Of a DNA stretch of 60,041 bases, positions 16,922-47,239 are shown in pieces. The translations under genes were made by a program, and so were the position numbers. Source of the stretch: Comamonadaceae bacterium (GTDB lineage: Bacteria; Pseudomonadota; Gammaproteobacteria; Burkholderiales; Rhodocyclaceae); assembly GCA_029255645.1 (NCBI GenBank), contig JANLJE010000027.1, positions 1 to 60,041 of the forward strand, given 5' to 3'. Below the pieces are notes generated by a model that did no database searches, had not been told where the DNA came from, and was given only the letters and a program-made list of their open reading frames with translations. The first letter of the stretch is position 1. Each line of letters opens with the position of its first letter.

Positions 16922-18676
16922 ATGAGTGCCAGCGTTCTTTCCTCCAAAGACCACAAAGGGTTCAGCCTGGATGCGGTCAGCCCCCTTGAAATGCTGGGGG
17001 ATAACCTGAGCAGGCATCTGGACCCGTTCGGTGTGACCACCTCCATGCTCAATGCCCAGGTGGCCTGGTTGATGCACCCCCAGGAAATGGTGCGGGCCAT
17101 GTCTTCCCTGTCCGGCGACCTGATGGCCCTGCAGGCCCATGTGATGCGGCGCGCCTTCGGGATTCCCTCCTCCGATGTGATCCAGCCCAATGCGGATGAC
17201 GCGCGTTTTGCCGACCAGGTCTGGGAAAACGCGCCGACCTGGGACATCATCAAGGAGTGGTATCTGGCGTTCACGCACCGGCTCCAGGACATGTACTACG
17301 AAACCCCGGGCCTGTCCGACAGGGAGCGGCGCCGGGCGGCGTTCTGGTTGCGTAAATGGTTGAATGCGGTGGCACCCACCAATTTCTTCTGGGCCAATCC
17401 GGTGGCACAGCATAAATATGTGGAAAGCCACGGCAAGAGCCTGGCGAACGGTTTTCGTAATTTCATGCGGGATGCCCAGGTCCGCAACATCCAGATGGTG
17501 GAAGACAATGCCTTCGAAGTGGGCCGGGATCTGGCGGTGACGCCGGGCAAGGTGATCTTCCGCAACCGCTTGCTGGAAATCATCCATTACACCCCCACCA
17601 CCGGGCAGGTGCACTCGGTGCCCTTGCTGATCATCACGCCCTGGATCAACAAGTTCTACATCCTCGACCTGAATCCCAAGAAGAGCATGGCCAAATATCT
17701 GGTGGATCAGGGCTTTTCGGTCTTCATCACCAGCTGGAAGAACCCGACGCCGGAGATGTCCGCCATCACTTTCGACGACTATCTGCGTGAAGGGGTGCAT
17801 GAGGCCGTGGAAGTCGTGCGGGATTTCTGTCAGGTACCCAAGGTGCATCTGGTGGGATACTGCATTGGCGGCACCCTGGTTTCCACCTATATGGCCTGGG
17901 CCAATCGTCAGTTTGGCGCCGACAAGGTGCCGGTGGCGGACTGGACCTTGTTTACCACCCTGACGGATTTTTCTCATCCTGGTGATATCGAGGTCTTCAT
18001 CGACGAGACCAGTGTTCGCGCCCTGGAAGAAGCCATGGCCAAGAAAGGCTATCTGGAAGGCAATGAGATGGCATCGGCCTTCCGCATGCTGCGTTCCAAC
18101 AGCCTGGTCTGGCATTACTGGGTGCACAGCTACCTTTATGGCGAGGCCTTGCCGCCGTTCGATGTGCTGTTCTGGAACATGGATACCACGCGCATGCCCT
18201 ATGCCATGCACAGTTTCTACCTGCGCGAGATGTATCTGCACAACAACCTGATCAAGCGCGACAAACTCACCATCGCCGGTCAGGCCATCGACCTGCGCCG
18301 CATTACCCAGCCGCTCTATGCGGTGACGGCGGAAGACGATCATATTGCCCCCTGGGCCCAGTGCTATCGCATCCGCCGGTATGTGAATGTGGATGCGCCG
18401 GTACGTTTTGTACTCTCCACTTCCGGCCACATCCTGGGCATCGTCAATCCCCCCGTGAATCCGCCCAAGCGCGCCTATTGGGCCGGTGAGCCCCAGCCCA
18501 ACGAGCATTACGAGGACTGGCTAAAGCGCAGCCAGAAGCAGCCTGGTACCTGGTGGGAGGACTGGATTCGCTGGCTGCAGGAGCGGGGTGGCGAACTTAT
18601 TGACGCCCTGCCGGTCGAAACCCGCAAGTATCCAGCCCTGGCAGATGCGCCGGGGACTTATGTTCTGGAAAAATGA
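16922..18676 (+). CDS. phaC: Class I polyhydroxyalkanoate synthase
   Basis: Polymerises (R)-3-hydroxyacyl-CoA into PHA on granules. It is 584 residues, typical for class I. The lipase-like box GYCIGG contains the nucleophile C314; D473 (EDDHI) and H503 (SGHILG) complete the triad. The ATG at 16922 is chosen because GGGAGA precedes it and the N-terminus then matches family length; the open frame extends further upstream without support. No phaA or phaB lie beside it. A phasin gene is encoded about 14 kb downstream. Confidence 0.95.
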   Translation: MSASVLSSKDHKGFSLDAVSPLEMLGDNLSRHLDPFGVTTSMLNAQVAWLMHPQEMVRAMSSLSGDLMALQAHVMRRAFGIPSSDVIQPNADDARFADQVWENAPTWDIIKEWYLAFTHRLQDMYYETPGLSDRERRRAAFWLRKWLNAVAPTNFFWANPVAQHKYVESHGKSLANGFRNFMRDAQVRNIQMVEDNAFEVGRDLAVTPGKVIFRNRLLEIIHYTPTTGQVHSVPLLIITPWINKFYILDLNPKKSMAKYLVDQGFSVFITSWKNPTPEMSAITFDDYLREGVHEAVEVVRDFCQVPKVHLVGYCIGGTLVSTYMAWANRQFGADKVPVADWTLFTTLTDFSHPGDIEVFIDETSVRALEEAMAKKGYLEGNEMASAFRMLRSNSLVWHYWVHSYLYGEALPPFDVLFWNMDTTRMPYAMHSFYLREMYLHNNLIKRDKLTIAGQAIDLRRITQPLYAVTAEDDHIAPWAQCYRIRRYVNVDAPVRFVLSTSGHILGIVNPPVNPPKRAYWAGEPQPNEHYEDWLKRSQKQPGTWWEDWIRWLQERGGELIDALPVETRKYPALADAPGTYVLEK

Positions 18677-18761: not shown

Positions 18762-19943
18762 ATGCCTGCCTTGCCGTCCCCGTTCCCTCTGCTGAAAGTC
18801 AAAAACAAGTCACTCCTGCCCATCGTGCAAGGGGGGATGGGGGTCGGAATCTCGGCTCATAAGCTGGTGGGGGCGGTGGCAGCCGAAAATGCGGTAGGCA
18901 CGGTGGCAAGTGTCGACCTGCGCCGCCATCACCCGGACCTGATGGAAATGACCTCCCGTATCAAGGATCGGGATGCCAACAAGCTGGCCATCTGGAAGGC
19001 CAATTGCATCGCCCTGGATCGGGAGATCAAGGGCGCTCAGGAGATCGCCAAAGGCCGGGGCTTGATCGCCGTCAATGTGATGCGGGCGGTGTCCCAGTAT
19101 CAGGAGTATGTTCGCCAGTCCTGTGCCTCCGGGGCCGACGCCATCGTGATGGGGGCCGGCTTGCCGCTGGATCTGCCGGAACTGACTGCTGATTTCCCCG
19201 ATGTAGCCCTGTTTCCCATCCTTTCCGACGTGCGCGGCGTGGTGCTGACCCTGAAGAAATGGATGCGCAAGAACAAACTGCCGGATGCCATCGTGATCGA
19301 GCACCCGGCCTATGCGGGCGGCCACCTGGGGGCCGCCAGGAAGGATGAGCTGGAAGACGAACGCTTCGACTTCGAGGTGGTGATACCCGGGGTGCTGCAA
19401 GCCTTCAAGGATCTGGGCATCGAATCCGAGAACATTCCCCTGATCCCCGCCGGTGGTATCAACAGCCACGAGAAAGTGCTGGACATGTTCAAGCTGGGGG
19501 CCTCCGCCGTGCAGCTTGGCACCGCCTTTGCCGTCTCCGAGGAAGGCGATGCCCATATCGAATTCAAGAAAATCCTTGCCGGCGCCAAACGTGAGGATGT
19601 GGTGGAATTCATGAGCTGTGCCGGCCTGCCGGCCCGGGCCGTGCGCACTCCCTGGCTGGAAAAATACCTGGCCCGGGAAGAACGCCTGATGAAGGCGGCC
19701 GAAACCAAGGATCACCAGTGTACCCTGGCCTGGGACTGCCTGGTGTCCTGCGGTCTGCGGGATGCCAACCCCAAGCATGGTCAGTTCTGTATCGACCATC
19801 AGCTGGCCGCCGCCGTACGCGGCGACGTGCAGAAGGGTCTGTTCTTCCGGGGCAAGGCCAGTCTGCCCTTCGGTTCGGCGATCCGCCCGGTCCATGAACT
19901 GATCCACTACCTGCTCAGCGGGGAAAAGCCCCAGCTCGCATGA
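18762..19943 (+). CDS. Nitronate monooxygenase-like FMN oxidoreductase
   Basis: TIM-barrel flavoprotein of the nitronate monooxygenase / FabK-like superfamily, 393 residues. Visible elements are IVQGGMGVGISAHKLVGAV at the N-terminus, HPAYAGGHLGA, and the FMN phosphate site IPAGGINSHEKV with GASAVQLGTAF. The C-terminal quarter has several cysteines (KDHQCTLAWDCLVSCGLRD), unusual for a simple oxidase. The start at 18762 drops an unlikely N-terminal extension overlapping phaC. Its stop overlaps the next gene as ATGA, so it is coupled to the chemoreceptor-like and di-iron genes that follow. Real substrate unknown. Confidence 0.8.
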   Translation: MPALPSPFPLLKVKNKSLLPIVQGGMGVGISAHKLVGAVAAENAVGTVASVDLRRHHPDLMEMTSRIKDRDANKLAIWKANCIALDREIKGAQEIAKGRGLIAVNVMRAVSQYQEYVRQSCASGADAIVMGAGLPLDLPELTADFPDVALFPILSDVRGVVLTLKKWMRKNKLPDAIVIEHPAYAGGHLGAARKDELEDERFDFEVVIPGVLQAFKDLGIESENIPLIPAGGINSHEKVLDMFKLGASAVQLGTAFAVSEEGDAHIEFKKILAGAKREDVVEFMSCAGLPARAVRTPWLEKYLAREERLMKAAETKDHQCTLAWDCLVSCGLRDANPKHGQFCIDHQLAAAVRGDVQKGLFFRGKASLPFGSAIRPVHELIHYLLSGEKPQLA

Positions 19944-20581
19944 CGCAAATTCCAGGCACCGGGAATCGGGTCCTGATCCCCTGTTCGGCAGGGCAGGACC
20001 TGGTCCGCATCGTTCAGATCAACGAGGAAATAAAATCCATCGTTGCCGTGGCATTCAAGATCAACATCATGGCCTTGAATGCCATTTTTCTGGCCAAGCG
20101 AGCCGGCACCACGGCCTTGGGGTTTGGTGTGCTCTCCAACGAGCTGCGCGTCTTTTCCCAGGATCTGAAGACGGCCATGGGCGGCCTCGGCGGCGCGATC
20201 CACAAGGCCGTCACCGAAGTTTCGGTATTGCTCCAGGATCAGCGGGTCCTGCGCTTGCTGCAGGAAGCCGAACGCCTGAGCGGCGGCAATGCCCGGGTAC
20301 GGGAGGCTGTGCTGGCGCGGCAGGAGAAGCTGGAAAGCCACAAGGCAAACCTGGCTCAGCAACGGCGCCAGCTGAAGCTGGTGCTGGGCAATGTCGCTCA
20401 ACTGGTCGAACTGGGCGGGGTGCTGGCCAAATCGGCCAAGATCGAGGCCGCCTACGGGCAAGCCTTCTCCTTTGCCTTGTCCCAGGTGTCCGGTGAATTT
20501 GATGGCGTGGTGGAGGAAATCCGCCTCTCCCTCAGTCATTTGAACAAGTCTGGTTTTTTTGCCCGAGGTAGGTCGCAATGA
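19940..20581 (+). CDS. Small soluble protein with chemoreceptor signalling-tip motif
   Basis: 213 residues, no membrane segment or signal peptide, predicted almost all helical. Residues 44-70 align without gaps to the cytoplasmic tip of methyl-accepting chemotaxis proteins: MALNAIFLAKRAG then GFGVLSNELR, keeping the LNA, RAG, GF, V, E and R positions. A long helical segment rich in Gln/Leu follows (about 80-200). There is no sensory domain or HAMP, and no obvious methylation helices. It is coupled by ATGA overlaps to the flavoprotein before and the di-iron protein after. I infer a cytosolic signalling partner of the latter; docking to CheA/CheW is untested. Confidence 0.75.
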   Translation: MTQIPGTGNRVLIPCSAGQDLVRIVQINEEIKSIVAVAFKINIMALNAIFLAKRAGTTALGFGVLSNELRVFSQDLKTAMGGLGGAIHKAVTEVSVLLQDQRVLRLLQEAERLSGGNARVREAVLARQEKLESHKANLAQQRRQLKLVLGNVAQLVELGGVLAKSAKIEAAYGQAFSFALSQVSGEFDGVVEEIRLSLSHLNKSGFFARGRSQ

Positions 20582-21318
20582 AGGCAAGCCAATGTTTTTT
20601 TCAGGATGGCGAACACAAATGGGTGGCCATCGTCCGCGATCCCGACCGGCCGGATGCCCTGATTGACACCAACGAATACCTGGTGGCCTGCAACGGTTCC
20701 GGCCTGCTGCTGGACCCGGGCGGCGCCGAAATTTTTCCCGCCGTGTTTTCCGCCCTGTCCTCCGGATTTGATCCGGCATCCCTGGTGGGGCTGTTCGCTT
20801 CCCATCAGGATCCGGACATCATTTCTTCCCTGGCCCTGTGGCTGGAGTTCAACCCCAGGCTGCCCTGTTATGTGAGCTGGCTCTGGGCTTCCTTCATTCC
20901 CCATTTCGGGGGCAGCGCCGAGAGTTTCGTTGCCATTCCCGATGAGGGTATGGAGATCAATCTGAATGGCCTGCCGCTTCAGGCGGTGCCGGCGCACTAC
21001 CTGCATGCATCGGGAAATTTCCATCTTTACGATGCCCGGGCCAAGGTGCTGTTTTCCGGCGACGTGGGAGCGGCGTTGCTGCCTTCCAGGACGGAAGGGC
21101 TGTTCGTGGAAAACTTCGATGCCCACATCCGCCATGCCGAAGCCTTCCATCGCCGCTGGATGGGCTCCAATGAAGCCAAGCGGGCCTGGTGCGAACGGGT
21201 TTCCCGGCTCAAGATCGACATGCTCTGCCCCCAGCACGGCGCCATTTACCAGAATCAGGATGTAGAGCGTTTCATCAACTGGTTTGACGGCCTCAGGGTG
21301 GGTGTAGCCGTCGGCTGA
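20578..21318 (+). CDS. ODP-like di-iron metallo-beta-lactamase-fold protein
   Basis: 246-residue stand-alone metallo-beta-lactamase domain of the flavodiiron/ODP group, lacking the flavodoxin domain. Likely di-iron ligands are all present in order: H76, D78 and D80 (SHQDPDI), H143 (HYLHASGNF), D162 (FSGDVGA) and H220 (CPQHGAIY). The second acidic ligand is Asp rather than the usual Glu. In Treponema denticola a protein of this type (ODP) senses oxygen and iron for a soluble chemoreceptor. The gene overlaps the chemoreceptor-tip gene as ATGA, which strongly suggests a comparable pair. An enzymatic oxygen or NO reductase role is the alternative. Confidence 0.82.
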   Translation: MKASQCFFQDGEHKWVAIVRDPDRPDALIDTNEYLVACNGSGLLLDPGGAEIFPAVFSALSSGFDPASLVGLFASHQDPDIISSLALWLEFNPRLPCYVSWLWASFIPHFGGSAESFVAIPDEGMEINLNGLPLQAVPAHYLHASGNFHLYDARAKVLFSGDVGAALLPSRTEGLFVENFDAHIRHAEAFHRRWMGSNEAKRAWCERVSRLKIDMLCPQHGAIYQNQDVERFINWFDGLRVGVAVG

Positions 21319-46642: not shown

Positions 46643-46800
46643 GGAAGGCGATGCTGGGCGAAGCAAGGAAGCGGAAGGTTGACCGTCCTGAGTTCAAGGC
46701 CAGCGTGTGTTTGGTGGCCTGGCGTGGGTTGAAGACGATCCATGAGATTGGCCAGCATGAGATTGCCCAGGAGTGCGGCGTGCATCCCTGCGTGCATCCC
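46639..46800 (+). pseudogene. IS3 transposase orfA fragment
   Basis: Reads MRKAMLGEARKRKVDRPEFK then WRGLKTIHEIGQ and QECGVHP, the helix-turn-helix start of IS3-type OrfA (K..Y..EFKA..ALEALRGEKT..EIA..YGVHP). A small internal duplication (HEIGQHEIAQE) and loss of the rest make it non-functional. The frame then runs into the orfB remnant without the usual overlap. Confidence 0.7.
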
Positions 46801-47239
46801 GGCATACATCCGCCTGCCCCGCGGCTTCGCCTATCGGGTGGCGATCATCGGCGGGTATTCGCGGCGGGTACTCCGCTGGTGGATCAGTAACCGCAGGAAA
46901 GCGCTGTTCTGCGTCGATGGCCTAAAGGATGCCTGGCGCCACCCCGGCCGGCCGGAAGTCTTCAACCGCGACCCGGGCGCGCAGTTCACCCGCGCCGCCT
47001 TTACCGACATCCTGAAACGGGAAGGCGTGCTCATCCGCAAGGAGGGTCGGGGGCGCGCCTTCGACAACCGCTTCGTCGAGCGGCTCTGGCGCAGCGTCAA
47101 GCACGAAGACGTGGATCTGAAGGGCGATGCCTCGATGGGCGAATCGATGCTCGGCCTGACCGCGTATTTCGGTATTGCGCCTTCTACAACGCCAAGCGTC
47201 CGCACCCGTCGCTGGGGCAGAAAATGGGGCAGAAAATGA
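46790..47239 (+). pseudogene. IS3 transposase orfB fragment (rve core)
   Basis: C-terminal integrase-core remnant: AIIGGYSRRVL, FNRDPGAQFTRAAF and RGRAFDNRFVERLWRSVKHE. The first catalytic Asp (normally in IDWYSRR) is Gly, so the DDE triad is broken. Near 47175 the reading frame shifts; the expected ending FYNAKRPHPSLGQ continues in another frame to about 47240. The 5' half of orfB is missing. Confidence 0.75.

Follow-up and report, generated by a model that had tools for sequence, protein, structure and literature searches.

A shortened chemoreceptor-tip relative and an oxygen-binding di-iron protein form a conserved gene pair and a candidate cytosolic sensor in Rhodocyclales-type bacteria

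According to excerpts of PMC7666581, the oxygen-binding di-iron protein (ODP) TDE2498 of Treponema denticola is coupled to TDE2496, a homologue of methyl-accepting chemotaxis proteins (MCPs) that has neither sensing nor transmembrane parts and is able to modulate CheA; excerpts of PMC6978683 state that this ODP contacts its receptors directly and in a conformation-dependent manner. Operons that join an ODP to an MCP come in two gene orders, and other ODPs are fused to or lie beside further signalling genes (Muok et al. 2019, via excerpts of PMC7319448). Here we describe a related arrangement in a 60,041-nt stretch of Comamonadaceae bacterium DNA (the window). It makes up contig C27 of a genome of 2.93 Mb, with completeness at 99.85 and contamination at 2.91, and in it an ODP gene directly follows a gene for a short relative of the chemoreceptor tip, hereafter the tip protein, with a flavoprotein gene upstream. 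The likeness to T. denticola is that an ODP gene is coupled to that of a sensor-less receptor and that the motif HQDPD is found in the ODP. Compared with TDE2496 as described, the partner here is only ~210 residues long, has ~40 residues before the tip motif, carries a second conserved block and has E385 replaced, and the pair occurs in Rhodocyclales-type bacteria.

The first-pass annotation of the window knew of no described system with this composition, a claim overtaken by the T. denticola proteins (PMC7666581) and the ODP-MCP operons (PMC7319448), which, in the excerpts we cite, follow the same principle of an ODP recruited to signal transduction. Bacillus subtilis YfmS is a soluble chemoreceptor (excerpts of PMC7542364), longer than the tip protein at 286 residues in the integrative YfmS-CheW model 9a72. 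DcrH, an MCP with a C-terminal hemerythrin domain, ties di-iron oxygen sensing to chemotaxis (excerpts of PMC13401364) and differs from the present pair in having another di-iron domain in a membrane-bound receptor, all on one polypeptide. No report on this particular pair stood out among open-licence papers. As far as that literature shows, the principle is known; what is apparently new is how extremely the protein has been shortened, its variant tip, its second conserved block and the strictness of the pairing within the group.

The window had been proposed to encode a cytosolic oxygen or iron sensing system made up of flavoprotein, tip protein and ODP. The sensing part of that proposal is supported and the trio is not: since the last gene product has the identity of an ODP, its partner is a receptor-tip relative and the two genes occur together in every tip locus examined, the likeliest interpretation is a pair for cytosolic sensing of oxygen or iron. 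Tip protein and ODP probably make up a two-protein cytosolic sensor, in which the ODP would sense O2 (or Fe or NO) and act through the tip protein on a CheA array, steering swimming by oxygen.

Profile, sequence and ligands all identify the last gene product as a true ODP. PF19583 covers its residues 29-221 (profile 1-194 of 194) at 242.8 bits against a cut-off of 27.2, and phmmer matched it to two solved ODPs, 6qrq (5.1e-67) and 6qnm (1.8e-62), the identity over the stretch matched being 42% in both cases; HQDPDV is common to these two structures. This agrees with its earlier description as a stand-alone di-iron domain. The ligands then named, H76, D78, D80, H143, D162 and H220, were correctly placed, and together with H140 they are invariant in 72 of 72 aligned ODPs (the window's and 71 from the 80 loci described below, nine loci being left out because the length rule gave no tip start). 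At position 81 these sequences have I, V, T or C and never His. The metallo-beta-lactamase fold is common to ODP and flavodiiron proteins, and the latter carry a further His beyond the ODP ligand set. Only PF19583 and PF00753 were found in the 246-residue protein by Pfam at E <= 1, with no flavodoxin domain. The same genome encodes a second stand-alone ODP (G000:C31:8377-8961), 34% identical to that of the window, whose closest kin in the tree come from six same-genus relatives; a crude reading of its neighbours showed no MCP motif.

The middle protein is, judged by its sequence, a receptor-tip relative with extreme shortening and a variant tip that lacks E385. The match to the chemoreceptor tip, placed earlier at residues 44-70, is real though weak in one sequence, and it extends further: PF00015 aligns with residues 26-93 (profile 34-101) at 29.9 bits (E 5.9e-7), and at 30.8 bits in the genome search, both scores falling short of the curated cut-off, 34.6 bits. 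A PF00015 match with E <= 0.01 is seen in all 61 aligned tip relatives, the strongest at 2.5e-10, and the first conserved block aligns with the MCPs of its own genome at an hhalign P of 2.1e-5. As had been noted, the 213-residue protein has no sensor or HAMP parts: Pfam gave neither family, its sole other row being a sub-threshold match to HL_N-beta (E 0.22). Compared with a full MCP, the short lead of ~40 residues before the tip motif and the total length leave no room for the long flanking helices with methylation regions. Its length is 195-221 residues across 22 genomes (one with a CTG start picked by rule), and a start giving 185-225 residues was present in 71 of 80 loci and absent from nine.

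Residues typical of receptor tips are kept throughout the family. In Tsr numbering, which was set through alignment to one MCP of the same genome, N376, N381, R388, G390, G395, F396, V398, E402 and R404 are present in 61/61 tips and F373 in 56/61; in a more diverse set of 22, the first nine of these residues are kept in all, except that R388 is found in 19. Five positions are replaced in every one of the 61 tips (T375 by I, A383 by I, E385 by L, A387 by K, G393 by A). For comparison, 13 MCP rows from the same genome were used, two of them near copies; they are what remained of 16 loci once an identical copy and two loci that did not show the motif searched for had been set aside. At position 373, D occurs in 6 of these 13 rows, and the F of the tip family is shared by two receptors with PAS domains encoded on contig C35.

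The tip and ODP genes form a fixed pair. A scan of named genomes with the tip alignment gave 152 stretches that encode a relative, and counts "of 80" refer to the best 80 of them, mostly from Azonexus, Dechloromonas, Azospira, Zoogloea, other Rhodocyclales or unplaced Betaproteobacteria. An ODP gene lies directly 3' of the tip gene in all 80, with a gap of -4 to +52 nt in the 71 loci measured. Among 100 related genomes (own genome included, and overlapping with those of the 80 loci), the tip protein was found at E < 1e-18 in 22, the next best match being 3e-9, and the ODP gene follows in each of the 22 at -4 to +19 nt. A genome-neighbourhood search, suggested earlier for the trio, thus returned the tip and di-iron genes side by side in both overlapping sets.

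In an unrooted tree, the 22 tip-linked ODPs fall on one side of a branch with support 100/97. Adjoining them is the ODP of genome G074, 50% identical to the window's, whose gene overlaps by ATGA that of a 226-residue protein (L205:2293-2973, + strand); this protein is helical by eye, has no Pfam family at E <= 0.01 and is possibly a second kind of ODP partner. Across 398 genomes of the phylum, with at most seven candidates scored per genome, only the own genome and G072 had a tip above 200 bits, and the next score was 65 bits. A short tip match in genome G153 proved to be a piece of an ordinary MCP without an ODP. ODPs themselves are more widespread, with 54 strong matches (>150 bits) in the 100 relatives, 32 of them without a tip gene. 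A crude reading based on longest open reading frames and a motif search placed an MCP motif beside one of these tip-less ODPs; in this locus (L224:1253-5956) the ODP gene is flanked on one side by a PAS-type MCP gene and on the other by a gene in which a GGDEF motif is seen.

Genes for a chemotaxis machinery are present in the same genome, with 16 MCP matches over cut-off, four CheA, three flagellin_N matches and CheW. Two of the MCP genes (G000:C39:12321-12695 and G000:C41:30274-30648) have equal scores, equal frame length and identical tip stretches. CheA was found in 22/22 genomes with the pair and 62/78 without it (Fisher 0.019), and the pair follows one CheA class in particular. This class, with PF02895 at E < 1e-17 and represented here on contig C35, occurs in 19/22 genomes with the pair and 23/78 without (Fisher 2.8e-6), and within the family outside the own genus in 12/14 and 9/26 (Fisher 0.0028), all three tests ignoring the shared ancestry of the genomes. 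The C35 cluster encodes CheB, CheD, two PAS-bearing MCPs, CheW, CheA, a response regulator, a third MCP and MotB. The idea that its PAS receptors are Aer-like was dropped, as both also carry 4HB/TarH or Cache sensor domains.

By analogy with T. denticola, the ODP would bind O2 at its di-iron site, and perhaps also report Fe(II) or NO, and its state would alter its contact with the short helical tip protein. Through its receptor-like end, the tip protein may be lodged in a chemoreceptor array or attached to it, the likeliest candidate being that of the C35 CheA, where it would shift CheA activity and so make swimming follow oxygen. Genes related to O2 or NO around the pair in relatives (FixG, FixH, hemerythrin, DUF2249, NnrS, HemN) were counted in favour of such a sensor. 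If it is correct, bacteria such as Dechloromonas, Azonexus, Azospira, Zoogloea and relatives would possess a very small receptor-like unit that lets a soluble sensor plug into an existing chemoreceptor array, and would offer a compact system in which to ask how much of a chemoreceptor is needed for CheA control and what each subunit of a receptor dimer does.

Several observations weigh against a chemotactic sensor. Position 385 is never E in the tips, being L in all 61 and, within the wider 22, L in 19, V in two and A in one, compared with E in 13/13 MCP rows of the same genome, and A387 is K in 61/61 and in 20 of the wider set. E385 of the receptor tip is important for trimer contacts, and with both positions changed the protein may be unable to make the usual contacts within trimers or with the kinase. 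The association with CheA is also open to the effect of ancestry on the tests, and it has three exceptions, G019, G022 and G057, which have the pair without the C35 class; the genome of G022 is complete and the other two are incomplete (57% and 85%). The 4HB/TarH or Cache domains of the C35 PAS receptors make an oxygen role of that array less direct. Finally, phaC lies 5' of the pair in 73/80 loci, and FNR-type boxes are found mainly at the 3' hemerythrin and hemN units and not at the pair.

Some of these same observations would suit an enzymatic role, in which the ODP is an O2 or NO reductase-like protein, partnered or scaffolded by the helical protein, with the hairpin co-opted for assembly and no part in chemotaxis. 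The fold shared with flavodiiron proteins, the altered E385 and A387 positions, the sister ODP of G074 with its own helical neighbour and the frequency of hemerythrin, DUF2249 and NnrS-like genes 3' of the pair (66, 64 and 64 of 80) are all consistent with it. We nevertheless consider it unlikely, given that a flavodoxin domain and a His at position 81 are both absent from the ODP, that the pair follows one CheA class, and that eight tip residues (N376, N381, G390, G395, F396, V398, E402 and R404) are kept in every tip of both sets and R388 in nearly all.

A second alternative takes the proximity of phaC at face value: transcribed with it, the pair would control polyhydroxyalkanoate synthesis or another metabolic step. 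The phaC upstream in 73 loci, matching PF07167 in the window, speaks for this, but five Zoogloea loci (L187, L197, L198, L199, L201) keep the pair with another gene in place of phaC, no Pfam family in tip or ODP points to polyhydroxyalkanoates, and 16 same-genus genomes show no pair, 14 of them with phaC next to the flavoprotein gene. We therefore regard metabolic control as quite improbable.

The distribution of the flavoprotein gene bears on the original trio. Its product matches PF03060, the nitronate monooxygenase (NMO) family, at 110.2 bits against a cut-off of 28. A close NMO (66-94% identity) lies 5' of the pair in 6/80 loci, and a distant NMO-superfamily gene (30-32% to the window's) in 11/80, where it stands between phaC and the tip gene (L135, L179, L180, L183, L184, L186, L189, L192, L195, L196, L200), so that the same slot is taken by two subfamilies. 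One contig ends 45 bases 5' of the pair (L133), and 62 of the other 79 have no upstream NMO. In genomes G043, G047 and G072 the close NMO is found elsewhere. Conversely, all 19 same-genus relatives have the close NMO, and 16 of them show no pair, although several of these genomes are incomplete; in 14 of the 16 it directly follows phaC, and in the other two no phaC was seen within the 1.5 kb examined. Because it is present in every same-genus relative and follows phaC in most that show no pair, we judge the flavoprotein to be a companion of phaC, a neighbour from that unit and no member of the sensing unit. That it belongs to the sensor and re-reduces the di-iron site of the ODP is thus highly improbable, despite the ATGA coupling of the NMO and tip genes in the window and the repeated use of the slot by NMO-superfamily genes, and the picture of a three-part flavin/di-iron system is corrected to a pair.

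Returning to the sensing pair, the form of the tip protein was examined by conservation and modelling. Column entropy is lowest at residues 36-75 (mean 0.42 bits) and 151-190 (0.65 bits), compared with ~2.2 in 101-150, and each of the two conserved blocks surrounds one expected turn. Two conserved blocks of this kind would suit a bundle of four helices whose two turns lie together at a single conserved end. The full-length AlphaFold2 model (pLDDT 88.6, pTM 0.78) has helices at 16-113, 118-172 and 174-202; the first of these is one helix in the secondary-structure line, which argues against four helices since the expected turn at 56-58 is not shown. When the N half was modelled alone, the helix did break at 56-58, with low confidence (pLDDT 76, pTM 0.43).

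For neither the full nor the N-half model did Foldseek give a match at E <= 0.001. Designed one-chain four-helix bundles headed the rows of the full model (first row TM 0.47), and the Thermotoga maritima MCP 2ch7_A ranked tenth (E 0.13). The N-half model bears a resemblance to receptor tips: its first row was 6s1k_E, a receptor chain of the Escherichia coli core signalling unit (E 0.047), and six further chemoreceptor rows appeared among the first 12 with weak E values of 0.05-0.9, the YfmS-CheW model 9a72 being row 8 (E 0.62). Profile comparison of the N and C halves by hhalign was not significant, which weighs against an internal duplication. The C block did align to the MCP tip in the expected register, as the second alternative hhalign alignment, a match no more than suggestive (P 0.056); 6 of 200 column shuffles reached its score of 19.5, with a maximum of 26.6. 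The second block is a possible second, diverged hairpin.

One chain with two tip hairpins can replace a receptor dimer, as in Rhodospirillum centenum, a handful of others and an engineered Tsr (excerpts of PMC4692393). Compared with these single-chain MCP domains, the natural ones of which are soluble, the putative second hairpin here has diverged too far to be clearly recognised by sequence. A four-helix bundle with both turns at the same end would amount to a one-chain version of the receptor dimer tip. We tentatively suggest that the tip protein might be a natural stand-in of this type, ~190 residues long, with turns at 56-58 and 172-174 at the same conserved end, though this is more doubtful than not. 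Its two hairpins would have specialised: N376, N381, F396 and mostly R388, but never E385, are kept in the first, and the second retains an IEAA-like motif in which the Glu is invariant. A trimer of dimers places the two subunits of a receptor differently, with one lying at the axis and its partner turned towards CheA/CheW, so the hairpins could take one of these positions each. The ODP would then switch a tip plug-in unit inside an existing receptor array.

Coordinates of the features in the window are collected in Table 1. The three + strand genes overlap by ATGA at both junctions, as the first-pass annotation had reported, with NMO and tip genes sharing 19940-19943 and tip and ODP genes 20578-20581.

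Table 1. Positions of the gene pair, its conserved parts and its upstream neighbours in the window.
Feature	Position	Strand	Remarks
phaC, 5' of NMO gene	16922..18676	+	PF07167 PhaC_N 193 bits; start codon picked by eye
NMO-family flavoprotein gene	18762..19943	+	393 aa; PF03060 110.2 bits
Tip gene, first of conserved pair	19940..20581	+	213 aa, predicted all-helical, receptor-tip relative
Tip gene, first conserved block	20045..20164	+	residues 36-75; aligns to chemoreceptor tip; turn expected at 56-58
Tip gene, second conserved block	20390..20509	+	residues 151-190, contains VLAKSAKIEAAYG; helix break at 173
ODP gene, stand-alone oxygen-binding di-iron protein	20578..21318	+	246 aa; PF19583
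ODP HQDPD, residues 76-80	20803..20817	+	expected di-iron ligands H76, D78, D80
ODP H143	21004..21006	+	expected di-iron ligand
ODP D162	21061..21063	+	expected di-iron ligand
ODP H220	21235..21237	+	expected di-iron ligand

Further genes recur around the pair in the 80 loci, some of which are cut by contig or locus ends. On the 3' side these are SirB in 70, hemerythrin in 66, DUF2249 in 64, HemN in 23 and NnrS in 16, together with an NnrS-like membrane protein in 64 that has no Pfam match and was named by eye; FixG/FixH lie 5' of the pair in 20. Neither NnrS nor SirB stands between the ODP gene and the next gene of the window; both are present there in the close relatives L122-L124. These three loci have perfect TTGAT-N4-ATCAA boxes between the ODP and NnrS genes (L122:2684, L123:5207, L124:6442), and in the window no FNR-type box with <=1 mismatch was found just 5' of phaC, NMO, tip or ODP. 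Across the 80 loci, boxes with <=1 mismatch that had a gene start within 250 bases lay closest to the hemerythrin gene (HHE) in 34 cases, hemN in 23, c13 in 18, usp in 10 and a beta-CASP gene in 6, with fewer at NnrS (3) and at the distant NMO, c14 and phaC (2 each). Since the boxes stand mainly before hemerythrin, hemN, c13 and usp, the downstream O2/NO genes are probably separate units. Elsewhere in the window, an open frame at 46742-47239 (+ strand) appears by eye to be a piece of an integrase-type transposase.

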